From Paramacrobiotus metropolitanus (lineage: Eukaryota > Tardigrada > Eutardigrada > Parachela > Macrobiotidae), in NCBI RefSeq assembly GCF_019649055.1, contig NW_026570362.1, positions 186,001 through 250,000 of the forward strand: 64,000 bases of DNA, in the 5' to 3' direction. The notes beneath the pieces are model-generated. The model had not been told where the DNA came from. It was given only the letters and a program-made list of their open reading frames with translations, and made no database searches. The translations under genes and the position numbers were made by a program. Shown one piece after another: positions 7,891 through 49,079 of the stretch. Position 1 is the first letter of the stretch. The number at the start of each line of letters is the position of its first letter.

Positions 7891-8631
7891 ACTTCAATAT
7901 CTAAACAGCTCAAAAACAGAGATATACATATCTGTACAGAGTACCGGGTGGCTGAACAAAATTGTATGGGGGTCTGATTTGCCAGGTGGTGATGGATCCT
8001 TCCGCAGTGCTGGCCTACTGCCATCTTAGTTTCATTCAAAAGAGTAATGTCTTTCCCATAGGAATTTTAAGAAAAGCCAAGATTATTTAAGACTTTTGAA
8101 CCTTTTTCTGGATTATTTTGAAAAATGGTGGATTTCGAGGGAGTCCTGGAAGCAAAAATTTAAAAATAACCATTTCTAAATCAAAACTTTTTGTTTTTCA
8201 GCTAAGTTGATTAATTTGTCTTACTTTCGCGTTTTAGATAGAGGGGCTGTTTCTTGTTTTTTTTTTTTACTAAAAACAACCGCAATATTCTAGCAACTGT
8301 ATTTTGCCGGTAATCGGGATAACAAAAATTTCCCACGAATTATTTTCGTGAAATCCGCAAGAAGGTTGTTCGAAAACAAATTTTTGATCAACGCTTCGCA
8401 AGCTTATCTGGTTCAATTTTTTTCTGCAAGGACTAGGTAGCAGTTAGAGTTGAACCGACATTAATTTCTTGCTGCAATAGGCGTGCATCAAAATGTTTTA
8501 CAAAAAATACTCATAGAAGTAAACCTACAAACCGGCATTTTTTGGAAATGTCACGAAGTACGTTGTCTGCATAGACCGTCAACGTCATGCAAACTGCACA
8601 GCCATCTCATTAAAGCGGCCGTCGAATGGCA
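7891..8631. other. Intergenic, no gene seen
   Basis: AT-rich DNA with a short poly-T run near 8260 and no supported coding frame. It is the 3' flank of the BTB gene that ends at 8632. Confidence 0.6.
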
Positions 8632-11230: not shown

Positions 11231-11648
11231 GATTGTAGGTTCCGCTAACAGGTAACGTCACTAACTTATGAGTTATTATAACCCGCAGATTGCAGCAAAG
11301 CAAATGTTCAGCAAAGGCGGTGCACCAGCTTCGGTGTAAGGAAAAAACGATGTACCGTGATCCGCTAGGACCAAACTGAGAAATCTGAATGTCTCCGTGA
11401 CTTGGAGTTTTTCGTTTAAATTTAGCAAAATCCTCCTCTTTCCTCCTGAAGACAAAAACACTGGAACCGATACGGTAATAATAGCAAAGCGCTATAAAGT
11501 GCATGGAAAAACGCTGAATGCACCGGATGTCAAACAGACAGAATGATTAGTCGTATACTCCATAAAGACATCGGTAAAGTTCTGTCAGTTGCTAGACAAC
11601 GACACAATCTTGCTATACGCTACAGCATCCATAATATAATGTTCCTTT
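11231..11648 (-). promoter_or_regulatory. 5' flank of BTB paralogue A up to the LTR insertion
   Basis: About 420 bp between the start codon of paralogue A and the 16-kb LTR element. An ACCGATACGGTAAT block near 11467 recurs upstream of pseudogene C near 54725, so the flanks were duplicated with the genes. The LTR element may have separated this gene from distal promoter sequence now at 27768 onward. Confidence 0.4.
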
Positions 11649-11998
11649 TGTTGGGCCAGTCGCTATGGCAGCCTACGAGTAGACAGCCAGCGACAGTCCC
11701 GCTTCCGGTGTGCTGACTCACACCGAGTCGCACTCGCTCTCGTACGCCGTATCGGCCTCGACTCTGGCTCGGCTACGCCTTACCACGCCTTCGGCTATAC
11801 GTCTCGGCCAATCAGCGTTCGTTCGCTCGTGTTGGATCAGCCCAGTGCCGCAGATAGGCATTTTCCATGTTACGGCTCATTCAGCCGATCATTCTTGTCA
11901 GTCATGATTTTGCTCACGCACTGTGATGTACTTTATTGCATTCACACAATAAAGCCTATTTCCTCACTATCGTGAGCCTCTGTTCGCCAGCTGTCACA
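11649..11998 (+). repeat. 5' LTR, 350 bp
   Basis: Direct repeat of 27418-27767, TG...CA ends, with an AATAAA polyadenylation signal near 11947. Short frames inside it (for example 11710-11907) recur identically in the other LTR and are not taken as genes. Confidence 0.93.
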
Positions 11999-13688
11999 TG
12001 CTAGCAGATCTCGGTTTTTCCTTCTGTGGAACCTTTTGAGAGACGGTGTAGACCTACATCCGTAACGGCCAACGAACAGGCAGGGGAGAGCTGAAACCCA
12101 GTTCCCATCCCCACCCGAACGTTGCCAGCCAGAACGGTGTTCTTCTCTCTTGCGGACGCGGGCAGAACGACCTGCGGACCCTCTTCTCTTACGCGGACAG
12201 AACGATCCTTGCGCGGACGACCAGCGGCACGGATCTCACGGACCTTCTGGACGGAACGTTCTGGATACGGGTTCGTTACGAGAGCCTGCAGCGCGAAGGA
12301 TTAATCATACGGGGTCACCTTTGCGTTAAGTCGCACCCGCAACTTTACCATCGCGGACAAGCGGATCAAGCGCGCGGAATCCACCGGATAACCCAGCAGA
12401 ACGACTCGGATTAACCCGGTAAAAAGGGTCGATTGACCCTCGGTAAACCCTGTAGAGCCTCAGTAGACCCGATATAGCCGGGCTACTTCGATTTTCCACC
12501 GACGAAAACTAGTTTCGGTCGGCTAGAAACCTTTTTTACCCGGAAAAACGGGCTTAGAAACATCTTTTACGGGTAGATTAGGGGTTAGCCAACCTTACTA
12601 GGTCGGACCCTCGAAGCCTCGGTGTAGACCCTCTGAGCCTCGGTTAACTGCTTCCTATAATTTCGGAAAATTAAGGGATAAATTTTCTCCCGGCTAAATT
12701 AATTTTGGTCGGCTAAATAAATTTTTCTGAATTTTTCCTGATTTTTTCGGAATTTTTCAATCGCGGAAATTAATTAATTCAAATTTTAAAATAATTGTGA
12801 CGTCACGGTAGCCGATATACAGTACTTTACGGCAGCCAATCAGCGTAACGGGGAGATTCCCTATGCTAAGTGCCCGTAGTGAGTCATACATGTTTACAAA
12901 TTTTTGCGCCCGGCACTAAACTTGTGACGTAGGCAGCAATTAGCAAGATCATTTTGTGTGACGTCACAGTGCTTAACGACCGTAGTATAGGACGTACGTA
13001 ATAACCGTACCGTACTGTAACCTGTACTGAGTCACAAGTAGTACGAGCACACCCACCACATCACCCCCCCACCCCACCGGACCTGTGCCCCCCACGGACC
13101 CTCGGAGGCTCTTCAACCCAAGGAAGTCCGACTCAACCGGAAGTCCCCAATAGGGATATTCGGTTGATCCAACGGAGGCTCGAAATCAACTTAGCGAAGG
13201 TTTGACTTGACCAAGAGGTCCCCAATAGGGATATCTGGTCAACCCGGCTGAAGCGAAAACCGCTTAAGCCTCCACCTTCAGTGGTAATCGGACATTGTTG
13301 GACGGACGTCCCCAATTAGGGACTCCGACCGACTTCCGCAGATTGCCGGAACCACCGCATCCGGACCTTCGAGGCCGGACATATCGAAGCCTCGACCCTT
13401 GACCCTCGAAGCCGGACGTACCGAGGTTGATCAACTTGAACCCGTTGACATCGGACGGTCCCCAAATAGGGATAGTCTGTACGTCTCGGCAGAGGTGCTG
13501 AAGCATCAAACCGATTACCGGACCCTCGAAGCCGGGTATACCGAAGCCTGAACCCTCGAAGCCGGACGTACCGAGGCTGAACCAGCTGAACCTGTCAACA
13601 TCAGACGGCCCCCAAATAGGGATAGTCTGTACGTCCCGGCCGAGGCATCACATCTCCATTTCCTGGGTTACCAAGGCTGAGCGTCAGA
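11999..13688 (+). other. Leader of the pol-less LTR element
   Basis: 1.7 kb with no supported ORF. It includes AT-rich DNA (12650-12960), a C-rich run near 13060, and from 13140 a repeated GTCCCCAATAGGGAT motif, the first members of the hairpin array. A primer binding site should follow 11998 but I do not recognise the matching tRNA. Confidence 0.55.
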
Positions 13689-15341
13689 ATGAGCGCTCAG
13701 ACCCGTAGTTACCAGACTCCACCGGAACCGATGAAGACCGGGGGCTACGACCCTCATCATGTTAGTCCTGCTGGCCGCGACGTACCATCCACGGGCCCAA
13801 TTAGGCTAGTGGGGGTACAGGTAACCCCTTCACCGGGACAGAATGTCCCTCATATCGGCCTCGGGGCTTCACCTCAGTCGGACCCTTGGTACGCAACCCC
13901 GGTGGACTGTAGACCCGACCCATCAGAAGGGCGCGAACAGAACTCGCCACTTCTCCAGCAGATTGCTGGCCTCCTAGGGCAACTGCAAGCGAATTCAGCG
14001 CAGAGCTTTGGCACCCTACAGCAGAACTTTGGCATCTTGCAACAGAACCAGACGGACACCCTGCAGGCCGTCGGTACTTTGCAGAAAAACCAGACGGAAA
14101 CTCTGCAGGCTGTGGGTACACTTCAGCTGGAGCACACGGAAACCCGGCATGCCCTCGGCACCCTACAGAGTGAAACCCAGCATGCCCTTGGCACCCTGCA
14201 GCGGAACCTCGGCAACTTGCAGACGGCTACCAGGCAGGACATGGAAGCCTTACACCGGCGGATCTCCAACTTGGAGCAGCAGCAGCCTGTGCTGGAGCCA
14301 GCGTCACAACAGCCTCATTACCCGGCAGTTATTGTGTCTGCACCTCAGAATGAGGTTACCGGACCCCATCCTGCGGATTCCAGCCGGGACCGACCCTCGA
14401 GGGTGCTGCTAGACCAGCAACCGAAGCACGTTCTGCCGCAGCAGACCCTAAATATGACCCAAATAGGTCTAATTGAGGGTCGCGACCAGTTACCGGACCA
14501 TTACTCGGAGTCATCTTCATCCAGCCCGACCCCCGGAGACCCGACTGGGGCTTATCGTCGACTGCAGAATCAGCCGACTTGGGCAGATCCTAGCCTCCGC
14601 ATACAAATCGCCGGACGGATGCCGCAGAATGCGGCTGCGCCAGAACATCTGAGACCATTGGTACCGGGAGATCGACCCAACTTGGTCGACCCACCTGGTC
14701 TACCCGACATACAGGGCAACCATCCGGCTCAGTACCCGATTCAACCTCCGGTCCCATACCTGGCTCAACCCCCGGCTCAATACCAGGTTCAACTACAGCC
14801 GGCTCAACCGCAGCTCATTCCGGTGGCCCAACAAGGCTACCCGGCCCCTCAACACGGTCCCGACGCAGAACGTGTCTTGGCAGCCCTACGGCATGCCCGG
14901 GATCGCGAGGAGAGATTGCTTCGGAGGATTGACCGCGGCAACCGACCCCAGTTACCGAAGTTTGACGGAGTCTGCACAAACCTGGACAGATGGGTGAAAT
15001 CCATCCGACGGATTTACGGACCGGACGGCGACCTGGATGAACCGGACGTGAACTTCACGACCGCCCTGGAAACTGCCCTCTCCGGCCCGGCCCTCGAATG
15101 GTTTGAAAACCAGTCGACCTCCGAGCCTGAAGAAGGCTGGACCGTCAATGAATGGCTGGATAAATTCATCGACCGGTTTGCGGAGAGCAACAAGCAGGCC
15201 AACGCCATAGCGGAGATCAGCCAACGGACGTACCGCTTTGGGCTAGAGACACCGGAGCAGTACTACGATGCCATGATGAATATTAAGGCACGTGGTGGTC
15301 TTTCGGAAAAGCTGGCCCTCACCTACTTACGGAAAACGTAA
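13689..15341 (+). CDS. Gag, first frame (550 aa), retrotransposon capsid domain
   Basis: Begins MSAQTRSYQTPPEPMKT. Residues 95-200 are a run of about a dozen GTLQ-containing units (LQQNQ, LQAVGTLQ, ALGTLQSE) that look helical and self-associating. A Pro/Gln-rich stretch follows. Residues 415-550 are the capsid-like domain (LPKFDGVCTNLDRWVKSI, ALEWFENQ, WLDKFIDRFAESNKQANAI, RTYRFGLETPEQYY), clearly related to the Gag of the 5' element in this window. The frame stops at 15339-15341 inside the domain. The remainder, with the zinc knuckle, is in the -1 frame. Confidence 0.82.
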   Translation: MSAQTRSYQTPPEPMKTGGYDPHHVSPAGRDVPSTGPIRLVGVQVTPSPGQNVPHIGLGASPQSDPWYATPVDCRPDPSEGREQNSPLLQQIAGLLGQLQANSAQSFGTLQQNFGILQQNQTDTLQAVGTLQKNQTETLQAVGTLQLEHTETRHALGTLQSETQHALGTLQRNLGNLQTATRQDMEALHRRISNLEQQQPVLEPASQQPHYPAVIVSAPQNEVTGPHPADSSRDRPSRVLLDQQPKHVLPQQTLNMTQIGLIEGRDQLPDHYSESSSSSPTPGDPTGAYRRLQNQPTWADPSLRIQIAGRMPQNAAAPEHLRPLVPGDRPNLVDPPGLPDIQGNHPAQYPIQPPVPYLAQPPAQYQVQLQPAQPQLIPVAQQGYPAPQHGPDAERVLAALRHARDREERLLRRIDRGNRPQLPKFDGVCTNLDRWVKSIRRIYGPDGDLDEPDVNFTTALETALSGPALEWFENQSTSEPEEGWTVNEWLDKFIDRFAESNKQANAIAEISQRTYRFGLETPEQYYDAMMNIKARGGLSEKLALTYLRKT

Positions 15342-16210
15342 CCGAATCAGAGTTACGCCGGGCTTTGGACATTAGGATGCCGGAAACCACGGCTGACTTC
15401 TTAGCATATATCCGGAAGTTCACCGCTGGAAAGCCGGAGTATAAGATGCCAATCGAGGACTCAATTGTCCGGAACGTGATCCTGGCCCCAAGACATGAAC
15501 GAGCAGTGCACTTTGCGTCCCCAATAGGGATGCCAGCCGTGCAGCCCCGGGCCCCGTTGCCTTCTTACGGTGGTCCCGGCCAGTACCCAGGAAGTGGGTT
15601 CGCCGGCCAGAATGGAGGCTACCACGGAGGGTGCAATAGCGGAAACGGATTCTGGCAGGGTACCTATGGTCAGGGGAGAAACTTCGGCCAGAATGGTCAG
15701 AACCCCTGGCCTAATCAGCGCCAGCGGACCCTGGATGCCTACGTGGACAGACAGGAGGGCCTGTTCTGGCAATGGACATTCGAGAATGGGATTACCTGCG
15801 GCAATTGCATGTGGGGCAATCACCATAGCAATGCCTGCGCGTACGCGAACGTTGACCCGGCGTTCAACCCGAACCTGCGCTGGTACAAGGACTGGCGTCA
15901 GAGGTATGATGGCGGTTGCCCGATAGGCTCAGCAAATCCGAACCGCGCGGCCTTGGTTCCTTTGCGCCCAATAGGTGCAGGGAGACCGAGAAGAAGGGTC
16001 AACCGGAACCAGCCCCTCGAAAGAAGGGTTAATGGTGGAGGTCAGCCAGATGAAGGTGGATACTCCTCCGAACCTGACGGATACCAGTATCCCGCCGGAC
16101 GGATGCAGGAGCCAATAGCTCCGCAGCCCTCAGGGTCGGCACCTTACGCCCCCAATAACGGTGGAGGATCAGCCCCGGTATACCTGACGGGAAACGAGTA
16201 TGGTCAGTAA
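15320..16210 (+). CDS. Gag, second frame, nucleocapsid part with CCHC knuckle
   Basis: The -1 frame takes over where the first frame stops; codons before the first ATG at 15380 already read as a smooth continuation of the capsid helices (TESELRRALDIRMPETTADF). After a Gly/Asn/Gln-rich segment, CGNCMWGNHHSNAC (about 15797-15838) is an exact C-x2-C-x4-H-x4-C RNA-binding knuckle. The tail is basic, then Gly/Pro rich. Either a programmed -1 shift at the AAAA run just before the TAA or a one-base mutation explains the split. Confidence 0.75.
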   Translation, partial: HLLTENVTESELRRALDIRMPETTADFLAYIRKFTAGKPEYKMPIEDSIVRNVILAPRHERAVHFASPIGMPAVQPRAPLPSYGGPGQYPGSGFAGQNGGYHGGCNSGNGFWQGTYGQGRNFGQNGQNPWPNQRQRTLDAYVDRQEGLFWQWTFENGITCGNCMWGNHHSNACAYANVDPAFNPNLRWYKDWRQRYDGGCPIGSANPNRAALVPLRPIGAGRPRRRVNRNQPLERRVNGGGQPDEGGYSSEPDGYQYPAGRMQEPIAPQPSGSAPYAPNNGGGSAPVYLTGNEYGQ

Positions 16211-16233
16211 GAAACGGTGCCTTAGCTGACCGC

Positions 16234-17859
16234 TTGCCACCAACCGAGCCACCGGACAAAGACAACCCATTTGGAGGATCCGCTGCAGGCGCCCATAATC
16301 GCGCCGGAGTTTCCCCACCCGACGAGAGAATCTTCGCCGGACCTCCTAAAATTCGTAAGAAAAAAGCTAAAACTTCAAAACCTAAGAGGTTACCGAAGAA
16401 AGGGGCCACCGTAGGCGCCAATAGCTGCCGCGGTCGGCCCGTGCCCGACAAGAGAATCTTGGACGGCCCGGATGGTATCCGAACTGGAACCATCCTAAAC
16501 AGCAACGACAACGTTGCCGGACCCTTGACAGCGACTCATGCCGTAAAGCTGACTGGCGACAATATCGCCGTCAGCCCACCACGGACACGGTCGCCGACGA
16601 CTCAGGGTAAATCCGGACGTTCAGCTGAACCGAGTCCACCGACCATGGGATCCACCACGGTAGCCCAATTAGGCTCCAGTGGCTCTCAGCCTCAGCAGGA
16701 GACCCTTAAAGGACGACATGGTTCCCAAAAAGGAATAGTGTCGTCCGGTAGCATCAATGCTGCCGGGTCGTCCGGCGCCAATATGGCCGCCAAACCAGCC
16801 GGTGCCATCAACGGCGCCGTGCCCCTCGGACCCTCCGGTGCCATTAACGGCACTTCGTCTACCGGAACGTCGGGCGTCAATAACGTCGCCAGACCAATGG
16901 GTGCCAAGAACGGCGCCTTACCAACCGGACCGGACGGCGCCACTAAAGTCGCCACGGCAACCGGACCTCGAGCCTCGGAGGAAAGGTGTAACATGACCCC
17001 CCAGGATTCGAGGAGGCCTCTTGGATTCTTCACCGCACCCCCAGCGGATGGAATGCCCGTCAAAATGACGGAAGGATCCCCCGGTAAAGCTCCTGGTGGA
17101 TCGTCCGCTAAAATTACGGACAAGGTTACCTCCCACGGGCCCAGGGATGGAACCTCGGCAACTGCAAGTAATGTCGCCGGATACAAGGAGGCTTACGCTC
17201 GGACGCATGGTAACGGGGTCGCTACCTGTTCCACTGCGCTCGGCACAAGCCAGGCAAATCCGCCGGTGAGCATAGGGAAGTTGCTGCAAAGGAACGTCCG
17301 GTCGAGAAGTATAATCCCAACGGACCCTCCGGTCGACCGGACACCTCAACTGCTTAACCCTGTGGAAAAGTCTATCCCGATACCAGAGGCATCGGGCAGT
17401 GTGGAAAAACGGGTAAACCGGAATGTGCACACCGGTGAAAACCGTATCCCCTGCCAGGATCAGACTGGCGAAGGACAGAAGGTTCCGGCAGCAAAGCAGG
17501 ACGAAGCCCGCAAGGTAAACGGGACAGTAAAGCCTATCCCGATACCAGAGGCATCGGGCAGTGCGGACAAACTGGTACAACAGAAGGTTGATACCCCCGA
17601 AAACCGCACCCTCGTCCAGGATTGCACCGGTAAGCGACAGACGATTGCCCCGGAAAAAGAAGCTCCGAAGGTGGACCAACCCGGAAGGGAGGATGAGACA
17701 GTGAAGTCAATCCCGATACCAGAGGCATCGGGCACTGAGCGGCAGATAGAAGAGCCGCTAATGTCTCTTTCGAGCCAGGCCAAGTTAGCAGCCATGCAAG
17801 CCGAGGTAGAAGCACTTTGGGGCAATGAGAAGCTCCTGACGGAGTGGTTCTTTAGATGA
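16234..17859 (+). CDS. Low-complexity ORF of unknown function (up to 541 aa)
   Basis: Open frame immediately after Gag, rich in Gly, Ala, Thr and Pro. It has a central array of NGAVPLGPSGAINGT-like units and three PIPEASGS/T units (near 17380, 17540 and 17720) spaced by about 55 residues. No enzyme motif is seen. The frame survives 1.6 kb of GC-rich sequence on the coding strand of the element, which favours real coding, but the start codon is uncertain. A structural or linker protein of the element is possible; function unknown. Confidence 0.45.
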   Translation: MPPTEPPDKDNPFGGSAAGAHNRAGVSPPDERIFAGPPKIRKKKAKTSKPKRLPKKGATVGANSCRGRPVPDKRILDGPDGIRTGTILNSNDNVAGPLTATHAVKLTGDNIAVSPPRTRSPTTQGKSGRSAEPSPPTMGSTTVAQLGSSGSQPQQETLKGRHGSQKGIVSSGSINAAGSSGANMAAKPAGAINGAVPLGPSGAINGTSSTGTSGVNNVARPMGAKNGALPTGPDGATKVATATGPRASEERCNMTPQDSRRPLGFFTAPPADGMPVKMTEGSPGKAPGGSSAKITDKVTSHGPRDGTSATASNVAGYKEAYARTHGNGVATCSTALGTSQANPPVSIGKLLQRNVRSRSIIPTDPPVDRTPQLLNPVEKSIPIPEASGSVEKRVNRNVHTGENRIPCQDQTGEGQKVPAAKQDEARKVNGTVKPIPIPEASGSADKLVQQKVDTPENRTLVQDCTGKRQTIAPEKEAPKVDQPGREDETVKSIPIPEASGTERQIEEPLMSLSSQAKLAAMQAEVEALWGNEKLLTEWFFR

Positions 17860-19351
17860 TTGTCTGGTGACCATTCCTGAATGCCATGAGATACTTGGAG
17901 AATGACCGGAATAGAACTTCCCAAGAGCCATCCCAAATTGGATCCGAGGTTCCGACTTGCCCAATAGGCAAGAATACCGTGAACCCGGAGGCTCAGGTTG
18001 GCTTTGAGCGCCCAATAGGTGCCATGCCAACCATCCCTCCAATCAACGGAGACTCGTACCCGGCACTAGCCGTTGCCGCGGTGTCATCAAACCTCGATGA
18101 CCCGGTGTTACCCCAATGAGGTGACACGGTTACCAGAACGGATCCGGAATGGATCCAAGGGACTTCTTTCCCGACATGGAAGGTGACTCACAAGGCGAGT
18201 TCACCGGGTGGAATTCTGATGTTCCTGACTTGGAGCCTCTTACCACTGAGAAGCAACCCTAGCTATCCGAAAAGGACCGAGAATCGGCCTTGCCGGACCG
18301 AGCAAGACGTTTGGGGACCCCAAACGCACCCCCGAAGGATGAACCTCGGACCCTCCCAAATGATGGTCGGAACCCTCAATTGAGGGTCCGGACCCTACCT
18401 TCACCGAGTAAGATCGCTGGGAAACTCGTTTTGTCTGGGCAAAAATGCCATTTCCCCGGCGAAAACTCCAACTTCGTCGGCTAGAAGAGGTATACCACCG
18501 ACCCTCGGATTATAGCCAGACATCATGGGAAGGAACAGCCGAATCGCCACTGAACGGAGTAATTAACCGGACAGAAGCGCAGGAGGCGACCAACCCAGGA
18601 CATGGCTGAACACCACGGAGTGGAAACCCCCAGTTCGCTCTTGGACGGAGTAATTAACCGGACAGAAGCGCGGGAGGTGACCGAGCCGAGGTTGACATCC
18701 GAAGGATAACCCTCCTTTTAATGGTTCCATCTTGCCCAATAGGCAAGAACGCGGTAAACCCGGAGCTTACAAGCCGGATGTGGCACCCAATAGGTGCCAC
18801 GAGGATCACATTCGAGGGTGCCTCGCACCTTGCATCAAGTTGAAGACACCTTAACTCGGATGCTGAGAAGCCTCGGACGCTAATATAGAAGCCTCGGAGA
18901 ACCCGAAGCCCCGATCCTGGACGCCCGGTTAGACAGCCTGGATTTCCCTGAAACTGTGAGGACAACGGCACAGACCGAGCCTTGATTTCAACATCGACTC
19001 TCTACGACGGTGCAAGACCCCCATGAAGGTCGGCCTGACGTAGATATTGGGCTCTTCCAAATTACCCAGGGCTGCATCGGACAAGCCGAAGAAGCCCGAA
19101 CGACAGAAGGTTGAGGCAGAACCAGCCAAGTCAACCGGACCAGCGAAGGAAACACCACAAAACACCTCATTAATAGGGCCACAGCTAACTCAGAATTAGT
19201 TAGGACTTAGCTAGGAATTAGTTAGGTTAAGAATGGACCTTCGGTGTCGGAATGAAACCTCTTCAGTTGACCATGGAACCCTTCGGTTGAACCCCTTTGG
19301 CCATCTCAGAATGTTAATTGGCCTTATTTCCTTTATTCCAACAGTTTCACC
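17860..19351 (+). other. Non-coding spacer with repeats inside the LTR element
   Basis: No supported ORF. It contains strong CAATA hairpins (about 17955, 18011, 18731-18747, 18780-18800), a perfect ACCCTCAATTGAGGGT palindrome near 18373, and a direct duplication around GGAGTAATTAACCGGACAGA (about 18556 and 18645). A small ATTAGTTAGG-type tandem array is at 19190-19232. Confidence 0.6.
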
Positions 19352-21739
19352 ATGTCAGAACGGCGGAGGGACCCATCATCAAGCGGATCGGGGAGCAGCC
19401 GGAGGGATAGCCGACGATCGCACCCCTATGATCGGACAAGCTCCCGAGCTGACCCACGCTCGACTACCCGGACGTCCATGCCACAGGTACAGAATGTACA
19501 GGCGAATCTTACCGCCGACGTCTTAGCAGGGTTAACGGTCGGGTCCAGAACGGCACTCCAGCCCTCGACAACTACTCAATGGAACTTACCACTTGGTATG
19601 ACGCTTGATGGAACCGGATTACTGGTAAACGAAAGCGCGGCGCCAAATACCTCGGCAGCATCGATCGACCCAATAGGTCAGATCAACTTGCCACGTTTAC
19701 CGGGACCTAGTTTGGTCCCGCCAACCTTTGTAACCGGAACACTTTCGACGTCATCTGTCGCGGCAAACCCGATTTGGCCGACAATCCCGGTCAACCAACA
19801 GGTCCCAATAGGACCGTGGGTGACTCAACCTGGGATAGGCCTTCATCCAGACCAGATGTTCACGCTGTTTTCTCAATGGTATAACCAGATGACCATGAAT
19901 CAACTTCGAGGAAGCCAGATGCAGTTGACGGGGTATAACCCACCGTTGGGACCGACACAAGGAGTCGGATACCCGGTGAACCCGTCAACCTCAGCAACGA
20001 TAGCGACCCGCCCGGAAGGAACACTATCCTCTCCGATTTTGTCCACGGAAACACGACAGCAAGGGCCCGGAGCCGACATTGAGGCTATCCAGAACGAGAT
20101 AGCCGGGACCGGACGGTTAGCCGAAGACTTAGCCATTCAAATTGCCCGATTCGACGATCGAACTCCGGCTCAGAAGAAGCTCAAGGAGTCATTGCGGGAT
20201 CAGCAGAGGATTGCTTTGACGCAAGTCCGAGACTTGAGGGTGAAACTTGAGGAAGTGAGCCGCAAAACGGTTCCACCTCAACCAGCAACACCCCGGTCTA
20301 CTTTCTTTGGGTTGACTTCCGCAGAGCAGGCAGTGACACATCGGACGGGACGTAGAGGTACCCCAAGCACGGACCCATCCGCTTCACCTACTCTGCTTCA
20401 ACTGACCCAGACAATCAGGGAGGAGATGCTACGAACCCCTGGTAGCCACCGCAAAACGCGGACCTCCGGAGAAACCCCTGCAAAACACCGTCAGGAAGTC
20501 AGCAGGAAGCCAGCCGAACCCACTAGAACCCATAAGGTAACAGTGGTAGCACCAAAGAGACCCTCAGAACGAACTCAGAAATCATCTGTACAAGTAACGG
20601 ATGAACCCATGCCCAGCACAAGTGGCATGGTGATTCAGTCTGCCAATTCAACCGGGCAGAAGAAAAGGGATATTAAGAAAGGAACCCAGGACATACCGAA
20701 ACGGTTGCCCAAAAAGACCCGTCTGGAAGGGGACACTGACGTCTCCGATGTTGAACACCGACATAAGAAGAACAAACGAAGGTTCCGACCCGAACAGTCA
20801 TCCTCGGATAGGGACTCAGACACCCAACCGGGACGGTCTGAGCCTTCCACCAACAAGAGTCCCAGTCAAAACCAGCCCGGCGAGCATAATGATTGGATCA
20901 ATGTCTGGTATCACGAACCTGATACAGACCAGTCAGAACTCCCTGCACCTGACGATGAACGAGACGGATTGCCGGAAAGAAAGCCCGAGGAAGCCGAAGC
21001 CCAGTTCCCTAGGGAAGAGCTTAACGAAGAAATCACCCGCATTATTCAAGCGGCGGAGCTCCAGGGCCGGGACATCTATCGAGAACTGGTCCGGGAGTTA
21101 TCGCAAGCGTACCACCTCGAAGGCCAACAAAATTGGCTGACTTCAGAAATGATGCGGAGGATCGTAGCCTGGACCCAAGACGAAGGAAAGGCACTCATAG
21201 TACATCGGGCATGGGAAACGATGGGCGAGATGATCGTTCCAAAGGCCCCGACGAAGTTGAGACAATCCGAATCGGAAGCAGAGAGAGTAGTCCGAGCTAT
21301 CGGCTACTATCGGAACCCGAGAGGATCGACGACCCTCCAGATCGCACGATTCCAGAATGTCATGTACAAATTTGGAAGCACGCCTAAAGGTGGAGCTGAG
21401 ATTGATGACATCATCCTCCGGATAGAGCCTATAATCAAGGAAATGGTAACTCACCGTGAACTTCAGACTACCAATGCGGAACGCGGACAACATCTGCGGT
21501 ATACCGTACCGGACTTTATACCTCAAGAGCACCGGGAGGGCCAGAGGCTCCGGATGTCCTACATTCAGGAAGAGGAATTCCAACCTGGAGGGTCAGAAGT
21601 ACGGCTAGAACCAACGGAAGAACCGGCCGAACAGGCTAGAGTATGGCTGAAACTTGCCCGATCAACAGCAGCAGCCTCGTACTCCCGGTTGCCGTTGACC
21701 CGACCTAGAGCCCCCCCGCGAGCCAAGACCCTCGGTTAA
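19352..21739 (+). CDS. Large ORF of unknown function (795 aa) in the LTR element
   Basis: Begins MSERRRDPSSSGSGSSRRDSR, an Arg/Ser-rich N-terminus. Residues 70-230 are Pro/Thr/Gln rich. Residues 245-310 (AEDLAIQIARFDDRT, RVKLEEV-like) are helical. A basic Lys/Arg-rich middle with nuclear-signal-like clusters (KKRDIKK, RHKKNKRRF) is followed by a charged C-terminal region (ITRIIQAAELQGRDIYRELV, ERVVRAIGYYRNPRGSTTL) that looks globular. No pol, envelope or known viral domain is recognised. It may be a second structural or RNA-binding protein unique to the element. Confidence 0.6.
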   Translation: MSERRRDPSSSGSGSSRRDSRRSHPYDRTSSRADPRSTTRTSMPQVQNVQANLTADVLAGLTVGSRTALQPSTTTQWNLPLGMTLDGTGLLVNESAAPNTSAASIDPIGQINLPRLPGPSLVPPTFVTGTLSTSSVAANPIWPTIPVNQQVPIGPWVTQPGIGLHPDQMFTLFSQWYNQMTMNQLRGSQMQLTGYNPPLGPTQGVGYPVNPSTSATIATRPEGTLSSPILSTETRQQGPGADIEAIQNEIAGTGRLAEDLAIQIARFDDRTPAQKKLKESLRDQQRIALTQVRDLRVKLEEVSRKTVPPQPATPRSTFFGLTSAEQAVTHRTGRRGTPSTDPSASPTLLQLTQTIREEMLRTPGSHRKTRTSGETPAKHRQEVSRKPAEPTRTHKVTVVAPKRPSERTQKSSVQVTDEPMPSTSGMVIQSANSTGQKKRDIKKGTQDIPKRLPKKTRLEGDTDVSDVEHRHKKNKRRFRPEQSSSDRDSDTQPGRSEPSTNKSPSQNQPGEHNDWINVWYHEPDTDQSELPAPDDERDGLPERKPEEAEAQFPREELNEEITRIIQAAELQGRDIYRELVRELSQAYHLEGQQNWLTSEMMRRIVAWTQDEGKALIVHRAWETMGEMIVPKAPTKLRQSESEAERVVRAIGYYRNPRGSTTLQIARFQNVMYKFGSTPKGGAEIDDIILRIEPIIKEMVTHRELQTTNAERGQHLRYTVPDFIPQEHREGQRLRMSYIQEEEFQPGGSEVRLEPTEEPAEQARVWLKLARSTAAASYSRLPLTRPRAPPRAKTLG

Positions 21740-21743
21740 AGGA

Positions 21744-22297
21744 ATGTTGTCAAGCCGGCATTCTGTCACGAAGCGAACCTTGCACTCTGTCCGAGACTCG
21801 GCAGGGAGGTTTGTCAAGAACACGCCATCCGGGATGTCTGCAACCCAACAACCCGGACCATCGACATCCCAACGACCCCCACTCAGTAGTCCGGGTACCT
21901 CCCGATCTGGTACCTCAATTAAGGTTCGGTCGGGAGGGAAGGAAAAGAATAGGAAATCCAGGATGCCGACGGACGCAGCTTTTCCTCGGAGGAAGCGTCG
22001 GAGGATGATGACGACAAGGACGACCATCAACCATCTGGTGAGTCGGAGGAGTCTGACGGGGATGACAATGTTGGACAGCCGCCAATAGCGGCTAACCGAC
22101 ATTCGAAACCGGAAACCCCGGATAATGCCCCACGTCACCGCACCCGGCACGACATAAAGCTACCGGCTGCCTCAACTTCGACCCCCGGTCAACCAATGTC
22201 AGCCCCTACTTCGAAGCGGAAGTCAAAGAGAACCACCCGGGCACAATCTGAAGATCCTGTCAGAATTCTTGCCCGCAGAATTCCACCAAACGGATGA
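21744..22297 (+). pseudogene. Basic then acidic ORF, one apparent frameshift
   Basis: The first frame starts with ATG at 21744 and is basic and Ser/Pro rich to about 21985. The continuing protein-like sequence is in another frame, an acidic run (EEASEDDDDKDD), then KRKSKRTTRAQSEDPVRI and a stop at about 22297. A one-base change near 21980 would explain it. A CAATA hairpin (22077-22093, AGCCGC/GCGGCT) lies inside. No known domain. Confidence 0.4.
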
Positions 22298-22463
22298 TTG
22301 ACGCCGAATGCGTCAGGGGGATCGCAGAATCGACCTCCCCCATGGCGGATACGAGCGAGAACCGGCCGTACCCGACCGTAGTAACCATAGGACGTAATTT
22401 ATAGGGAGCCATAGAACTCGGTAGAATTATAGACTGTGGATTGTACCTTAACCTGACAATTTA

Positions 22464-23291
22464 GTGCTCTGTCTACAGAACCAGACAGAAGCCTATGACC
22501 CCGGATGCAGACGCTGCCGTGCGAGTAACCACAATTATGGTCCCCGGCATGCTTGTGCAGAATGCATTCTCGCCCGGCTGGATAGACAGTCCCTGGACGG
22601 GAGAGCTCACCGCGTCGATCAAGCTAACACCCTGTACCTTCAGGCTGTGGCTGGGAACTTGAGCGCGTACCTGTACCTGGTTGGTCACCAACAAGTGATA
22701 GACCAGTTGCAGGGAGAGCCTTTGCTGCATCTTTCGGATCTGCATCGTCACCGTCAACGTACTCGTGAACCTGGCTGGGAACATACCCCACCACCCCCGG
22801 AGAATCCGAGGTTGGTTAACGCCCGGGAACAACGTCGCGAGGAATTTCGCGAGGACGAACGGCGCAGAACCGCAGAAGTAAATGTTCGGCAACCATCGCT
22901 CAACGCGGAACCCAATAAGTTCCCGAATGAGCAGTTCGCGCCGACTCATCTGCCGACGACAGCCATACTGACCGGACCGGACGGTGCTCATTACGTAGCC
23001 CAGCTAACGCGGATCAAAGCCCTGGTGAGAGCACCACCAGTCAGCTTACCGGTTAGCAGGGCACCTCAGCCTATCAGCCTCCAACCGAATATCGTACCGA
23101 GACAACCCCTGGTACAACCTCCGATGGTGGTGTTGACCCCAACAGGGTCGACCCCATCAACTCAGAAAAGCTCACCCGACCCCAGACCATCGTCTGGAGA
23201 ATCGCGCCGATGGACGGAAGCTGGTCACCGAAGTAAACCGGAAGCTCAACATAAGTCCGATAGACATCGGACAGCAAAAGAGCCTCGGTGA
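22464..23291 (+). CDS. Cys/His-rich ORF of unknown function (up to 275 aa)
   Basis: The N-terminal 45 residues contain CRRCRASNHNYGPRHACAEC, a possible zinc-binding cluster. A helical stretch (LYLQAVAGNLSAYLYLVGHQ) follows and then a charged, Pro-rich tail. It resembles neither the integrase HHCC motif nor the Gag knuckle closely enough to name. It is the last ORF before a 4-kb non-coding, repeat-dense 3' region. Confidence 0.45.
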   Translation: MLCLQNQTEAYDPGCRRCRASNHNYGPRHACAECILARLDRQSLDGRAHRVDQANTLYLQAVAGNLSAYLYLVGHQQVIDQLQGEPLLHLSDLHRHRQRTREPGWEHTPPPPENPRLVNAREQRREEFREDERRRTAEVNVRQPSLNAEPNKFPNEQFAPTHLPTTAILTGPDGAHYVAQLTRIKALVRAPPVSLPVSRAPQPISLQPNIVPRQPLVQPPMVVLTPTGSTPSTQKSSPDPRPSSGESRRWTEAGHRSKPEAQHKSDRHRTAKEPR

Positions 23292-23559
23292 ATTGGAACT
23301 CAATGGTAGCCGGACCCCAATAGGGTTAAGCTCACCATGAAACTAGCTGGAAATGGTCACGACGACGTCCCCAACAGGGACATGGACAATAGTCCCCGGA
23401 CATTGCTACCGCAGATTGCGGCATTCACCTTGTTCCCGCTACTAGCCGGACCCTCAATAAGGGACACGGCAGTAGACCCTTTGTGGACTGCAGTCTAACC
23501 GCATCTTCTACCATACGGACCCTCAATAAGGGATACGGTGGTAGAATGGACCGGAAGCG

Positions 23560-26160
23560 CAGATCGTATCAACTACGCTCTGCTAACCAACCGGACCCTC
23601 AATAAGGGATACGTTGGTTGAACCCTCCTCGAAAATTCTAAGCCCAATCCAACCCTCGGTGGAGAAGCCTAAGTCTAACTCCACCTTCTGAGGATTAACT
23701 TTGCAAATCCGACTGAACGGACTCCCCGGACTGACCCGGCAAATACGGGTGCAGCCGTCAGAATTTCAGTGCTTGCACCGTACCGGAACGTCTTCCGCGG
23801 TTTCCCCCGGACAGTATCCGTCAGAACGTTCGGATCCTCCGGCACCAGCAACCTTCATGGCACAGATCGTGTCATTAACCACATCTGCTACCAGCACCGC
23901 AGACCGCGACCTTAACCACGTTTGGCTACCATGACCGGCCCAGAACGGAGCCTTTGCCCGAGCCAACGATGTCTAACCTGCAGATCGCGGCTAACCACGC
24001 TCTGCTACCGAAGAAAAGTGACAGAGGACCGCCACAAGTACGGCCGTCCGTGGAGATCTTCGCGACCATATCCCATCCGCAGATCGCGGCTCTTAACCAC
24101 GATTTGCTACGTCGCAGTCTTCAGCCATATCAAGCCACTGAACGGATGGATCGTTAATAACCTTCCCGGACCCTAAAGGCTCCGGAGCTTGAGGCCTAAT
24201 AGGTGTCCAACTTAACCCTTGTGGAAATTCTAAGTCCCAATCCGCCCTTGAACGAACATCAAAGTCCTATTTAACCCTTGGTCAAGAAGCCTAGAACACC
24301 GAGAAAGAACCCCATCGGAGTTGACAGAACAGGGGCCAGACTCTCGCCCAGTGGATGCTAAGCTAGCCTTTCACGGACCAGGACGGCTCCCAATAGGAGC
24401 CTCCGTCCCGACCGGAAGGAAAAAAATTCATCGGAGCCGGACTCGGACTCCAGCCCAGAGCCTTAACCTCAGACACCGAGGTTACTCTCATCCGACCTCG
24501 GAAGGCCGGTGATACCCCCCTCCACGTTGCCCAATAGGCGACAGGAGACGAAATTAAGGGTTTTGCCCGGCGAAACGCCGAAGATTCAGCTTAGCCAAGG
24601 GCCAGACTGAGGCTAACCCGGTCGCCGAGCCTATCTTGGACATGGAGGATAACCCGATCGGGATTTCCAAGTCCAGCAATAACCCTCTCTATGTTGCCCA
24701 GTAGGCGACTGGAGACGAAAATAAGGGTTTCGCCCGGATGGAACATCGGAAATCCGACCCACCAGACTGCCAAACCCCGGACATGAACGGTCTCCCCGGA
24801 TTGACCCGGTAAACATGAGTGCAGCCGTCAGAATTTCAGTGCTCGCACCGTACCGGAACATCTTCCGAGGTTTCCCCCGGACAGAATCCGTCAGACGTTC
24901 GGATCCTCCGGCATCAACAACCTCAGCACCGCAGACCGTGGTCTCCAACCACGACTTGCCACCATTTCGGCCCAAAACGGAGCCTTCACCCTAGCCAGCG
25001 CAGGTCGCGACTAACCACGATCTGAAGGCAGGGCTTCTTACGGACTTCAACTTGCCAGCCGGGGCTTCAGGGCTGCCAATGGACTTTAACTCGGCAGCCG
25101 GGGCTGTAAGGCTACATTTAGACTTTAACTCAGCAACCCCCTGGCAACCCTCGGATTGGACCCTCGAAGTCCAGTCTTATCCGGTCCACGTTGCCCAATA
25201 GGCGACTGGACACGGAACTGACAGGTTTGCCCGGACAAAAGACCTCGAAACTTGAAAAGCTGACCGACTGCAGGGGCTCGGACTGGGACTTTACCTCAGC
25301 AACCGAGGCTGCGGTCGAATTCAACCCATAACTCTGGCGGAATCCATGGTACGAAAAGCGACGGGACGGTGCTGCGCGGCGCGATCTGCTTCGCTCCACC
25401 GGCCTGTCCCTCCGGCAGAAGGACCCTCGGAGAATGCGAGCCTTCGCAGATCGCGTATAACCACGATCCCTACCTTACCAAGGATGCCCATCGAGGCCCA
25501 ATAGCCCTTGCTTCCACCCCGGAATGAGGCCAGTCTCGTTACCGAGGTTCGGACCCTGTCTGGAGGCCGATTGACCCCCGGACATCGAGGCTAACTGACT
25601 CTCGGATACCTGTTTGAACTCTGTCCAGAGGCATTGACCCTCTCCATGTTACCCAATAGGTGACGGGAGATGTTAAAAAGGGTTTCTGCCCGGGCAGAAC
25701 GCCTTAGGACCAGCCTTAGCGGAGGCTGACTACCTCACCACCGAGGCTACCCCGGACACGGAGGCTGCCTCCGGTAGCGACTTCATCTTATCGGTAAGAC
25801 CCTCGGTAGAGTTGCCCAATAGGCGACCTACATCGCGAATAAGGGTTTTGCCGAGATGGAATGACCATCAGACCCTCGGGTACCGAGGCTCGGAACCTCC
25901 GACCCTCGAGGGTCGAACCCCTCAACCTTCAAAGTCCGGAATCCACCTTCTCCGAGTCACCCAATAGGTGGCAGGAGGCGGATTTGAGGATTTTTACCGG
26001 AACAGAACGACCATCAGACCGAGGCTAACCTACCCTCGGACTTCAACCCTCGAAGTCTGGAACCCACCCTTTCCGAGTTACCCAATAGGTAACCACGGAT
26101 GGATTTGGGATTTCAACCGGACGGAACACCAGCAAAATCGCAGAACTACGACTTATCTGC
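23560..26160 (+). repeat. Second hairpin family, GCAGATCG...TAACCACGATCTGC type
   Basis: About eight variants (near 23562, 23897, 23980-24005, 24077-24105, 24930, 25002, 25446 and 26136) have GCAGATCG-like and CGATCTGC-like arms around a loop usually ending in AACCA. Arms vary (CGCTCTGC, CGATTTGC). Pairing is less regular than in the CAATA family. Confidence 0.6.
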
Positions 26161-26590
26161 GCGGCCGAGGCTCGGACCTCCGACCCTCGAGGGTTGAACC
26201 TCTGACCCTCGGGCTCGGACCCTCGGACCCCTTGAACCCCGGCGATCATCCTCTCCGAGTTACCCAATAGGTGACAGGAGACGAACTTAGGATTTTCAGC
26301 CGAGCGGAACATCACCACACCCATTTGCCAGTGCAGCCGAGGGTACAACCTGGACTCTAACTCGAGTACCGAGGCTGCCAATGGACTTAGACTCAGCAAC
26401 CGAGGCTGGGCTTGGACTCTGATTTTGCAACCGGAGCTGACCCTCGGTCACCGAGGCTACCATCGGACTTCACAACCTTGAAGTCAACCGGATATAGGGT
26501 CGGACTCCCGCACAGAGACCATACCATCACTCGGACCGGAATGGAGACCAGGCATTAACCGGTCCTTGTTTCCCAATAGGCGACCGGACA
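24520..26590 (+). repeat. Nine extended two-stem CAATA modules
   Basis: Near 24520, 24687, 25184, 25641, 25806, 25950, 26072, 26252 and 26562 the inner six-pair hairpin is flanked by a second short stem, usually offset by two bases on the 5' side and one on the 3' side. Outer stems: CTCC/GGAG (24520), GTCC/GGAC (25184, 26562), TCTCC/GGAGA (25641, 26252), GTAG/CTAC (25806). The copy at 26072 has a looser outer stem. Most are followed at similar distance by AAGGGTTT-like and CCCGG...GGAAC-like words, so the unit is about 60 nt. Confidence 0.82.
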
Positions 26591-27417
26591 CAACATTACG
26601 GTTTGCCCGGATCAAACCTCGGATCACCGGACTTCCCCGGAGGATCCACCGATCAATAGACCCAATAGGTCTTATCCTGCACTCAGAGAGGGTACCTTAT
26701 GGTATTCGCGACTGCGACAGTGCCTCTCCATCAACCCTACCCGATGAACCTCAGCTGGACGTAAGTACGAGCTGTCTTACCCGGCTACGAAGGTTCCAAT
26801 CAACATTTCACCGGAGGATCCCAGTCGAAAAGTGTGTTTCACGCCCGTTTCGCACCCGACGACGGAGATCCAAAGTCAATACCCGAAGTCAATAGGGTCG
26901 AACCTCTGACCCTCGAAGGTCGAGCCTCCGACCCTCGGTGAATCGAACCGGTAACATCGGGTATCCCGAGAACCGATGCCTCGGACCTGGATGACCGGAC
27001 ACCTTGAGGACAGGAGACCCCGGAAACGGACGTCTTCCTTGTCGGAATGAGCACCCGGACCAAAGCCCCGGACCAAAGACTTTGATTTTGTTTTTCTGTT
27101 CTTCTAACTATGAAATAATGTTTTATTAAGAGAGAGAGATTGATGTTCTTTTATTTTTTTTACTTTCATTTTCTTGCCGTTACGGATGTTCATCAACAGA
27201 AGCCTACACCGGTCCAACAAGAAACCCGACCGACCTTCGGATTTCTGCCGTGAGTTGTTTCGCCACCACGGGTCCGGAGGAGAACGCGGCACCGAGAGAC
27301 CTTCATCGGACATCACCGAGGCGCAGCCACCGACCCCAATAGGGTCGAGTGCGGAGCGGGCACTGGAGCGGTACGAGGCCGGTCCTTCGCAGGGGCTCGG
27401 ACTCCCGCCCAGAGGCA

Positions 27418-27767
27418 TGTTGGGCCAGTCGCTATGGCAGCCTACGAGTAGACAGCCAGCGACAGTCCCGCTTCCGGTGTGCTGACTCACACCGAGTCGC
27501 ACTCGCTCTCGTACGCCGTATCGGCCTCGACTCTGGCTCGGCTACGCCTTACCACGCCTTCGGCTATACGTCTCGGCCAATCAGCGTTCGTTCGCTCGTG
27601 TTGGATCAGCCCAGTGCCGCAGATAGGCATTTTCCATGTTACGGCTCATTCAGCCGATCATTCTTGTCAGTCATGATTTTGCTCACGCACTGTGATGTAC
27701 TTTATTGCATTCACACAATAAAGCCTATTTCCTCACTATCGTGAGCCTCTGTTCGCCAGCTGTCACA
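27418..27767 (+). repeat. 3' LTR, 350 bp
   Basis: Indistinguishable by eye from 11649-11998 and followed by the CTTT target duplication. No convincing polypurine tract precedes it. Confidence 0.93.
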
Positions 27768-27819
27768 CTTTTAAGTTTTAGGTGCGTACTTAAAGCACGT
27801 GTGTAAGTGTGTTCATTTA

Positions 27820-32416: not shown

Positions 32417-32439
32417 GATAGTTGCGAAAGGTCACAAAA

Positions 32440-33170
32440 CGCAAAAACACAGTGATAATATAGTGTCGTGATACTATATTGGTAAAACACTAACTAAATA
32501 CTTCAGTATATTCAGAAGTTACAAGTCGCATAACACAAAATGTCCAACTGAAGGAACGCGATGCGGTTAGCATGGAAAGCAAACGATTTAAATACCTGAT
32601 TGCTTCAGGAAGCACATGGTTCCATTCCGTTCGCCATTGTTCCCCAGTTCTATTCAAGTTAAAGAAGGGAGGCAGCGATCAGGGTTGAAGGTCTTCTAGA
32701 AAGTTACTTGGTTCGGTGTACAGCTTCTCTCTTATCTGTATGTTTTTTAAGTATCTTGCATCATTGATCCGGGAAAAAGTTTGCATCGTACAGAAAAAAG
32801 TTTGCGAAGAAATTTTTAAGTATTTTTCCCGGATCAATGATGCAAGATACTTGAAAAACATACAGATAAGAGAGAAGCTGTACACCGAACCAAGTAATTT
32901 TCTAGAAGACCTTCAACCCTGATCGCTGCCTCCCTTCTTTAACTTGAATAGAACTGGGGAACAATGGCGAACGGAATGGAACCATGTGCTTCCTGAAGCA
33001 ATCAGGTATTTAAATCGTTTGCTTTCCATGCTAACCGCATCGCGTTCCTTCAGTTGGACATTTTGTGTTATGCGACTTGTAACTTCTGAATATACTGAAG
33101 TATTTAGTTACTGTTTTACCAATATAGTATCACGCTACTATATCATCCCTGCGTATACGCATTTCAGCGT
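32440..33170. repeat. Long internal palindrome, about 330-bp arms, 44-bp spacer
   Basis: The left arm (about 32450-32778) and right arm (32823 to about 33146) are near-perfect reverse complements; the innermost pairs are GGGAAAAA (32771-32778) and TTTTTCCC (32823-32830). Identity decays toward the outside, but a GTGACCTTTCGCAA block directly before both start codons (32416 on minus, 33198 on plus) is conserved. The same 68-residue frame appears on both strands because of the palindrome and is not a gene. It acts as a divergent 5' region for the two spliced genes, and could also be a replication or recombination structure. Confidence 0.88.
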
Positions 33171-39601: not shown

Positions 39602-39704
39602 AGCAGTATTCTTGTTTGTTTTTAGTTCTGTTTGTTTATTTTAGGAAATGGTTATTCCTGTTGCAAAAAAAAGGCTCATAAAAAAGCCATTATTTCTAAC
39701 TCCT
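39602..39704. terminator. Convergent gene ends, PolB (+) and membrane ORF (-)
   Basis: Short AT-rich spacer with poly-A and poly-T runs where plus- and minus-strand transcription units meet. Confidence 0.35.
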
Positions 39705-41845: not shown

Positions 41846-41846
41846 G

Positions 41847-42212: not shown

Positions 42213-42215
42213 TTT

Positions 42216-44014: not shown

Positions 44015-44020
44015 GTTTTT

Positions 44021-45022: not shown

Positions 45023-45028
45023 TAATTG

Positions 45029-45139
45029 TTAAGTCATATCATTGCTAATGGTCTGAGCTTTTTTCCATGGAGATGCTAGACTTTTGTTCATTTGAGTATT
45101 AGTGAATTCTGATTCCGGTACTAGCACATACGTCTTCAT
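45029..45139 (-). CDS. Small ORF, 36 aa
   Basis: ATG at complement 45137-45139, stop 45029-45031. Begins MKTYVLVPESEF. Its ATG overlaps the stop of the preceding short frame (ATGA), the same arrangement as at two other junctions in this cluster, which supports translation. It ends 6 bases before the next start codon. Function unknown. Confidence 0.45.
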   Translation of the reverse strand: MKTYVLVPESEFTNTQMNKSLASPWKKAQTISNDMT

Positions 45140-45593: not shown

Positions 45594-45620
45594 TATGAAA
45601 ACGTCTCCCTTTTCTACGTT

Positions 45621-49046: not shown

Positions 49047-49079
49047 TTGTTGTGACCACAATCCATTGCTATTTCTTCT
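49047..49079 (-). repeat. Polinton right terminal inverted repeat (core)
   Basis: Exact inverted match of 30109-30141, followed outward by the GTGTAT duplication (49080-49085). Confidence 0.9.

Follow-up and report, generated by a model that had tools for sequence, protein, structure and literature searches.

Dispersed CAAUA-loop hairpins selected as RNA in a giant Ty3/gypsy lineage of the tardigrade Paramacrobiotus metropolitanus

Packaging of retroviral and retrotransposon RNA has usually been described through one compact 5' signal. Among single-stranded RNA viruses, multiple dispersed hairpins that share a loop recognized by the coat protein have been reported, those of MS2 combining an apical-loop motif with a 5' bulge (PMC6281560; this and the three sources that follow are drawn on in excerpt). 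Within the long terminal repeat (LTR) retrotransposons, the Sireviruses of the Ty1/copia group carry highly conserved short repeated motifs, including an inverted repeat at the polypurine tract (PPT) (PMC2829016), and giant gypsy elements with extra protein domains exist under the name Burro (PMC6431247). Cer1 of Caenorhabditis elegans needs the CERV protein for export of its RNA, an RNA structure of Mason-Pfizer monkey virus (MPMV) binds NXF1, and human immunodeficiency virus 1 (HIV-1) uses Rev (PMC10309623). The locus considered here lies in a stretch of 64,000 nucleotides from the tardigrade Paramacrobiotus metropolitanus, called the window, which comprises positions 186001-250000 of contig C142 (NW_026570362.1) in an assembly of 169.8 Mb and 533 contigs; C and L labels denote contigs and loci of that assembly. 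An LTR element of 16,119 bp at 11649-27767 of the window was found to carry an array of small hairpins in which the loop is fixed and the paired stem is free in sequence, and selection on this motif acts at the level of the sense-strand RNA across a giant Ty3/gypsy lineage and its pol-less copies.

The motif consists of a stem of about 6 bp capped by CAAUA, less often by CAAAUA, CAAUUA, CAACA or CAGUA, and a second, imperfect helix often lies below the stem after a small bulge or mismatch. Requiring a run of at least 4 pairs and a loop of CAATA, CAAATA or CAATTA gave 35 sense hairpins; two with CAACA loops (23140 and 23372) and one with a CAGTA loop (24699) bring the total to 38, the number that an earlier sequence-only reading had estimated, and all seven stems quoted in that reading are present in the element. 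Its interval of 13140-27345 was likewise right for the hairpins, the enclosing element being the wider span given above. As in dispersed packaging-signal systems, many hairpins with a shared loop are borne on one genomic RNA. They occur in and between open reading frames (ORFs), as had been claimed, with 11 of the 35 inside ORFs and distributed over all three codon frames, and the other 24 outside; on these two counts, a motif driven by the encoded peptide (PIG codons) was rejected. Of the 38, 16 are found in the 4.1 kb next to the 3' LTR and 22 in the other 11.3 kb, so that the density in the 3' non-ORF region is roughly double that of the rest. The hairpins are listed below by window coordinates and strand, with the position of the loop.

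13136..13164, + strand: hairpin, CAATA loop at 13148
13211..13239, + strand: hairpin, CAATA loop at 13223
13301..13330, + strand: hairpin, CAATTA loop at 13313
13451..13480, + strand: hairpin, CAAATA loop at 13463
13786..13815, + strand: hairpin, CAATTA loop at 13798, in gag
14448..14477, + strand: hairpin, CAAATA loop at 14460, in gag
15510..15538, + strand: hairpin, CAATA loop at 15522, in gag
15957..15985, + strand: hairpin, CAATA loop at 15969, in gag
16101..16129, + strand: hairpin, CAATA loop at 16113, in gag
16548..16576, + strand: hairpin, CAATA loop at 16560, in orf3
16654..16683, + strand: hairpin, CAATTA loop at 16666, in orf3
16866..16894, + strand: hairpin, CAATA loop at 16878, in orf3; folding in its 220-nt context has a predicted probability of 0.0
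17950..17978, + strand: hairpin, CAATA loop at 17962
18001..18029, + strand: hairpin, CAATA loop at 18013
18725..18753, + strand: hairpin, CAATA loop at 18737
18776..18804, + strand: hairpin, CAATA loop at 18788
19659..19687, + strand: hairpin, CAATA loop at 19671, in orf4
19794..19822, + strand: hairpin, CAATA loop at 19806, in orf4; compensated in L016
21904..21933, + strand: hairpin, CAATTA loop at 21916
22071..22099, + strand: hairpin, CAATA loop at 22083; compensatory change in L028
22520..22549, + strand: hairpin, CAATTA loop at 22532, in orf5
23128..23156, + strand: hairpin, CAACA loop at 23140, in orf5
23306..23334, + strand: hairpin, CAATA loop at 23318
23360..23388, + strand: hairpin, CAACA loop at 23372; likely counterpart in L041 has a CAATA loop and a compensated stem
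23443..23471, + strand: hairpin, CAATA loop at 23455
23512..23540, + strand: hairpin, CAATA loop at 23524
23588..23616, + strand: hairpin, CAATA loop at 23600
24379..24407, + strand: hairpin, CAATA loop at 24391
24520..24548, + strand: hairpin, CAATA loop at 24532; 61-nt repeat family
24687..24715, + strand: hairpin, CAGTA loop at 24699; 61-nt repeat family
25184..25212, + strand: hairpin, CAATA loop at 25196; 61-nt repeat family
25642..25670, + strand: hairpin, CAATA loop at 25654; 61-nt repeat family
25805..25833, + strand: hairpin, CAATA loop at 25817; 61-nt repeat family
25950..25978, + strand: hairpin, CAATA loop at 25962; 61-nt repeat family
26071..26099, + strand: hairpin, CAATA loop at 26083; 67-nt repeat family D13
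26253..26281, + strand: hairpin, CAATA loop at 26265; 61-nt repeat family
26651..26679, + strand: hairpin, CAATA loop at 26663
27325..27353, + strand: hairpin, CAATA loop at 27337, just 5' of the 3' LTR; nearly unchanged in L041

The 61-nt repeat family comprises eight copies at 24507-26609, in the long 3' non-ORF region, each with one CAATA or CAGTA site, and it suggests that hairpins may multiply through local duplication.

The preference for this loop was found to be pronounced and confined to one strand. Among the 125 sense pentaloop hairpins of the element with a stem of at least 5 bp, 24 have CAATA as the loop and the next commonest loops occur 3 times each; 214 such hairpins were counted on the antisense strand, where CAATA is outside the four commonest loops shown. 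The word CAATA itself occurs 43 times in the sense and 4 times in the antisense direction, and none of the four antisense words is flanked by a 5-bp stem, in agreement with the fixed strand and invariant-type loop first proposed. Dinucleotide shuffles (300), the check that had been put forward to expose an effect of composition, gave a mean of 0.09 and a maximum of 2 CAATA hairpins versus the 24 observed, and a maximum of 4 for any loop. Elsewhere in the window, 5-bp stems were found at none of 93 CAATA words. When the 43 sense words were taken with no selection for a stem, the fraction paired at positions 1 to 6 was 0.77, 0.77, 0.79, 0.79, 0.74 and 0.63, dropping to 0.26-0.28 at positions 7-8. 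Set against 2000 shuffles of the partners, the summed pairing score was 5.02 (shuffled 3.54, maximum 4.26), and stems of at least 5 bp were present at 24 of the 43 words (shuffled mean 2.3, maximum 9). The remaining 19 words lack a 5-bp stem, so not all of them sit in hairpins. This is a fairer test than an alignment of 37 hairpins, preselected for 5-bp stems, in which 94.6% of cells are paired and changes on both sides are found at all six pairs. A covariance model, also suggested earlier as a check, returned 31 matches in the window at E values up to 1, 30 of them on the + strand of the element; 24 of these had served to train it.

Evidence that the pairing is maintained in RNA was provided by the cells of the stems that are not Watson-Crick pairs. 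Within hairpins having at least four Watson-Crick pairs of six, the remaining cells of the window element are 19 G-U, 3 A-C and 14 other mismatches; the corresponding numbers for the group B loci (seven loci from six related elements, with orf4 47-55% identical) are 11, 3 and 9. The pooled excess of G-U over A-C (30 vs 6) has a p of 7e-8 given the composition of the window element, which favours A-C. Predicted folding in 220 nt gave a mean pairing probability of the top stem above 0.5 in 34 of the 35 hairpins; the same level was exceeded in 20 of the 61 remaining pentaloop hairpins of at least 5 bp, which served as controls. With respect to the lower helix, when 31 hairpins exchanged their lower 3' flanks, the mean minimum free energy rose from -19.57 to -15.48 (standard deviation 0.51, 200 swaps); counts of lower stems in a fixed register are weak, both in the window element (5/31 vs a shuffled mean of 2.1, maximum 7) and in group B (5/28 vs 1.6, maximum 6). 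In the GTYRCC family, 0.88 of the cells of the outer pairs are paired compared to 0.67 after shuffling (maximum 0.80 in 2000; 25 distinct sequences), and a C-G to G-C exchange is seen among them. A search of Rfam over 11649-27767 returned 0 matches at E values up to 1. Kissing loops between hairpins were rejected, with 0 sense hairpins found to present the complementary TATTG loop on a stem of at least 4 bp.

Covariation of one stem type was then apparent over the whole genome. Sites of the form GTTNCC-CAATA-GGNRAC have G-C at the third pair in 94 cases, A-T in 74, G-T in 6 and A-C in 4, with reversed-pattern controls yielding 0 sites genome-wide; Fisher's test gives a p of 2e-37 when sites are treated as independent, which copies are not. 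The CpG ratio of the window outside the element (observed/expected 1.14) is not depleted, and hence the third-pair pattern does not arise from CpG decay. The 94 GC-type sites form 52 clusters in the genome, one of mixed strand, and 89 of the 94, as counted among the sites listed, have a U-G wobble at pair 4 (GGCGAC, not GGCAAC). In a comparison of strands that used 69 of 82 gag and 55 of 67 orf4 matches, all 40 GC-type sites lying no more than 25 kb from a listed gag match share the strand of the match in question (one being upstream of it), as do 28 of the 30 near a listed orf4 match, both exceptions being on C138. Together, the shuffles, the pairing of unselected words, the wobble asymmetry and the genome-wide pair counts strongly support the original proposal of RNA-level selection with a fixed loop, a fixed strand and covarying stems.

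Related copies were found to share the motif and its strand. In the group A loci, CAATA is the loop of 140/1343 sense and 3/1914 antisense pentaloop hairpins, a count that covers 18 of the 20 loci L021-L040 (L021 and L034 being omitted as flanking DNA) and contains 10 hairpins from the minus strand of L036, unlisted by the covariance model and probably part of a tandem repeat; two of the three antisense cases are also in L036, where an other-strand fragment of another copy sits. The values for group B are 21/233 sense and 0/503 antisense, with all 10 kb of L041 taken in, including one CAATA hairpin (4898) beyond the LTR. Across the loci, the covariance model gave 160 matches at E values up to 1 in 23 loci, and none in L021, L034 and L043. 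The last of these, on C8, has a gag that is 40% identical, and CAATA is the loop in 0 of its 44 sense pentaloop hairpins, the word occurring 3 times in 7 kb; as this single locus covers gag and flanks without the 3' region, lineage specificity of the motif holds only as far as tested.

Comparison of orthologous core hairpins (upper stem of at least 5 bp) revealed 31 single changes that break a pair versus 67.3 expected under site independence, 26 single changes that still pair (34.0 expected), 7 double changes that pair (3.2) and 5 that are broken (3.5), with 15 gaps. Loop bases were changed at 42/486 positions compared to 528/3671 in the flanks. Compensation was recorded at 22083 vs L028 (G-C to A-T at pair 2), at 26083 vs L028 (A-T to G-C at pair 3), at 19806 vs L016 (G-C to A-T at pair 4) and at 23372 vs L041 (C-G to T-A at pair 2). 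Selection on the hairpins as RNA is found in the genomes of related elements as well, mildly so with weak hairpins included. The earlier reading had named decay of stems in related elements without compensation as evidence that would tell against it; compensated stems and a deficit of broken pairs were found, the excess being modest with weak hairpins and several copies looking decayed. Stops are present in the gag of several copies, and such decay dilutes the orthologue test.

The element that bears the array has the following features.

11649..11998, + strand: 5' LTR, 350 bp, TG...CA, identical to the 3' LTR
13626..15341, + strand: gag frame P0001, 571 aa, covering the N-terminal and capsid parts; PF03732 scores E 0.014-0.016, under the cut-off; at least 82 matches in its own genome
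15287..16210, + strand: C-terminal gag frame P0002, containing a CCHC knuckle at ~15797, in a frame other than that of 13626-15341 in the window copy
16159..17859, + strand: orf3 P0003, 566 aa, three IPIPEASG repeats
17860..19270, + strand: site where the larger relative has pol (protease, reverse transcriptase, RNaseH, integrase; PR-RT-RH-IN), absent from the window element
19271..21739, + strand: orf4 P0004, 822 aa, conserved C-terminal domain
22452..23291, + strand: orf5 P0005, 279 aa, Cys-rich N-terminus
27418..27767, + strand: 3' LTR

Its two LTRs, of 350 bp each with TG...CA ends, are 100% identical and are bordered by a 4-bp target site duplication (CTTT) at 11645-11648 and 27768-27771. 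Of the features of Ty3/gypsy elements, these paired LTRs with their duplication and a gag with a CCHC knuckle (located by a regular expression pattern) and a weak, sub-cut-off capsid domain were found; no reverse transcriptase (RT) or integrase (IN) was found in the five ORFs of the window element, and the order PR-RT-RNaseH-IN is accordingly missing. The window copy is a pol-less derivative of Ty3/gypsy elements, not a full member, and the earlier designation as an LTR element stands for the terminal repeats and duplication, with the qualification that pol is lacking and gag is split. A larger Ty3/gypsy relative on C4 (L042) has its protease, RT, RNaseH and integrase encoded downstream of gag and ahead of an orf4-like region, and it bears the CAATA hairpins as well; between the gag match (at 172891) and the LTR match (ending at 194614) it covers about 22 kb, and its full length is estimated at about 24 kb. 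The sole counterpart in the window element of the pol frames of C4 is the orf3 stretch, and orf3 runs to orf4 with no pol between. The peptide repeat IPIPEASG is found three times in orf3 (window 17332-17737) and again in the protease-bearing frame of the C4 relative (L042 frame 1769-5434). The pol-less layout is common to copies: those on C59 (minus strand) and C352 align over the junction without room for pol, and in the C32 copy the flanking matches at the junction are only about 2.6 kb apart. At least 82 genome matches to P0001 and at least 67 to P0004 were scored.

The frame of gag switches in the window copy at 15287-15341, while the gag match of the C32 relative is a single open frame of 848 aa; the split could have arisen through subsequent damage or through an error in the sequence. 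The lack of pol, the split gag and the identical LTRs together suggest that the window copy was recently mobilized in trans. The C-terminal domain of orf4 (window 20903-21715) is 54-56% identical to four aligned relatives from other loci. No convincing relative of this domain was found, the best PDB match having an E value not below 0.11 and Pfam giving nothing over the cut-off, and a search for proteins homologous to P0004 and P0001 returned no match at E 0.001. A by-eye impression that the domain is basic was ruled out by its charge, which with 37 lysine plus arginine and 47 aspartate plus glutamate residues is slightly acidic.

With regard to function, the hairpins may form a series of docking sites for a protein on the genomic RNA. 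The favoured role, to which we give about an even chance, is that Gag or another element protein uses them to package or condense this RNA: the sites run along its length and persist in copies that rely on proteins supplied by others, and dispersed hairpins of RNA viruses offer a precedent. An element-encoded RNA-binding protein, with the nucleocapsid region of Gag as the first candidate and the product of orf4 or orf5 as the second, would dock on the loop at many sites, and docking would mark and condense the genomic RNA of 16-24 kb for selective packaging. Pol-less derivatives, obliged to travel in the particles of a partner, would compete for packaging through their hairpins.

A number of observations weigh against packaging. 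Retroviral packaging signals are usually near the 5' end, where no concentration of hairpins was found, the denser region being that before the 3' LTR. Locus L043 has a similar CCHC knuckle and 0 CAATA hairpins in its 7 kb; a knuckle of the same type without the hairpins indicates that the gag knuckle alone may not read the loop, and the C-terminal domain of orf4 is an open candidate for that role. The absence of CAATA hairpins from positions 4130-9482 of L042 (about 5.3 kb, from RT to IN) implies that not every part of the RNA needs them. The orthologue signal becomes mild once weak hairpins are counted (274 broken singles vs 368 expected, 29 pairing doubles vs 14), and the rate of loop change (115/1065) equals the overall mismatch rate. 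The GTTNCC stem type of the 3' region, not confined to pol-less copies, also occurs near matches to group B, the lineage that keeps pol, so its amplification in pol-less copies is at most conjectural. Finally, the binding partner of the hairpins is one that we only infer.

The most serious competitor, though an unlikely one, is that the hairpins form a multivalent nuclear-export or RNA-stability element, recruiting a host factor or a protein of the element, by which the long unspliced RNA exits the nucleus or avoids decay. Known export elements are single compact structures rather than dozens of small hairpins across coding sequence, and the partner protein would likewise be only a candidate. 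The doubled density in the 3' non-ORF region and the presence in the hairpin lineage of extra ORFs without known relatives are in its favour, as is the need of the unspliced RNA of LTR elements for an export route, for which Cer1/CERV, MPMV/NXF1 and HIV-1/Rev are precedents (PMC10309623).

A host RNA-binding protein might instead read the loop for other ends, such as germ-granule localization, translation control or escape from small-RNA silencing. This would require no element-encoded protein, and a short apical loop on a stem of free sequence is a common format of protein recognition; confinement of the motif to one retroelement lineage in the loci examined, and the lack of an Rfam match, render it distinctly improbable.

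That the palindromes act as DNA, in the form of cruciforms, transcription-factor sites or recombination sites, or belong to a proliferating miniature palindromic element, has very little to commend it. Duplication does contribute, given that some copies are in 61-67-nt repeat families, but the stems and flanks are otherwise mostly unrelated; the loop is on one strand only, G-U far exceeds A-C, the U-G wobble at pair 4 recurs in nearly all GC-type sites, and on this wobble asymmetry DNA palindromes were rejected. Chance or composition, by which CA-rich sequence would yield CCAATAGG with paired flanks, found no supporting point and was rejected as having a negligible probability by the shuffles and by the CAATA words outside the element.

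Under the packaging or condensation reading, a more tentative extension may be envisaged, one that we hold to be rather less probable than not: a giant LTR retrotransposon lineage with a genome-wide RNA docking code, in which dozens of CAAUA hairpins and an element-encoded reader, possibly the orphan orf4 product, would see to the packaging or chaperoning of 16-24 kb RNAs, parasites without pol would live by the code, and duplication in the 3' region may serve competition between copies. To our knowledge, no MS2-like dispersed signal array has been described before in a retroelement, and the present case would be the first, if true; no report of such a hairpin array in an LTR retrotransposon was found in searches of open-licence papers. 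Each RNA offers dozens of naturally varying sites, the genome has 52 clusters of one stem type, and the copies without pol amount to natural experiments. Whether retroelements use dispersed packaging signals can thereby be put to a direct test, and the loop-stem design presents an unusually clean problem of RNA-protein recognition.

The remainder of the window contains other features. A gene cluster at 35825-48162, which we take to be Maverick/Polinton-like, encodes a DNA polymerase B (PF03175, 3.8e-43), an integrase core with chromodomain (42956-43948), a TBP-like ORF (45621-46313) and an IAP with BIR and RING domains (47062-48162). Diverged repeats at 8600-11250 and 49000-61600 look like several copies of a host gene family with multiple exons, BTB-like by eye only. 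Another retroelement gag-like ORF is on the minus strand at 3288-4535 (PF03732 E 6.9e-5), with its own CCHC motif at ~3600-3641, and an inverted repeat of 342 nt, 96% complementary with a 44-nt spacer, occupies 32437-33164.

Compared to the known systems, again as far as the excerpted sources describe them, the element resembles Burro as an oversized gypsy-type element with extra ORFs; Burro has been described by its extra protein domains, with no hairpin array mentioned in the part of the account used (PMC6431247), whereas pol is missing from the window copy of 16 kb. Short motifs repeated within LTR retrotransposons are shared with the Sireviruses, in which, however, they are kept as sequence (PPT copies and CGG-CCG boxes) in the linker and LTRs (PMC2829016). 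The stems of the window element vary and covary, its hairpins are in both coding and non-coding RNA, and membership of the Sireviruses (Ty1/copia, with IN before RT) is contradicted by relative L042, which has IN after RT. Cer1 is comparable by description, as an LTR element whose genomic RNA is handled by an additional protein, CERV, with no hairpin array described in that excerpt (PMC10309623). The MS2-type packaging signals differ in that the element has a CAAUA loop with few variants, is an LTR retroelement of 16-24 kb and has a coat contact that is only proposed; the likeness consists of many small hairpins on one genomic RNA, with a shared loop and variable stems, partly within ORFs, and several hairpins of the element share with them a 5' bulge below the apical stem (PMC6281560).

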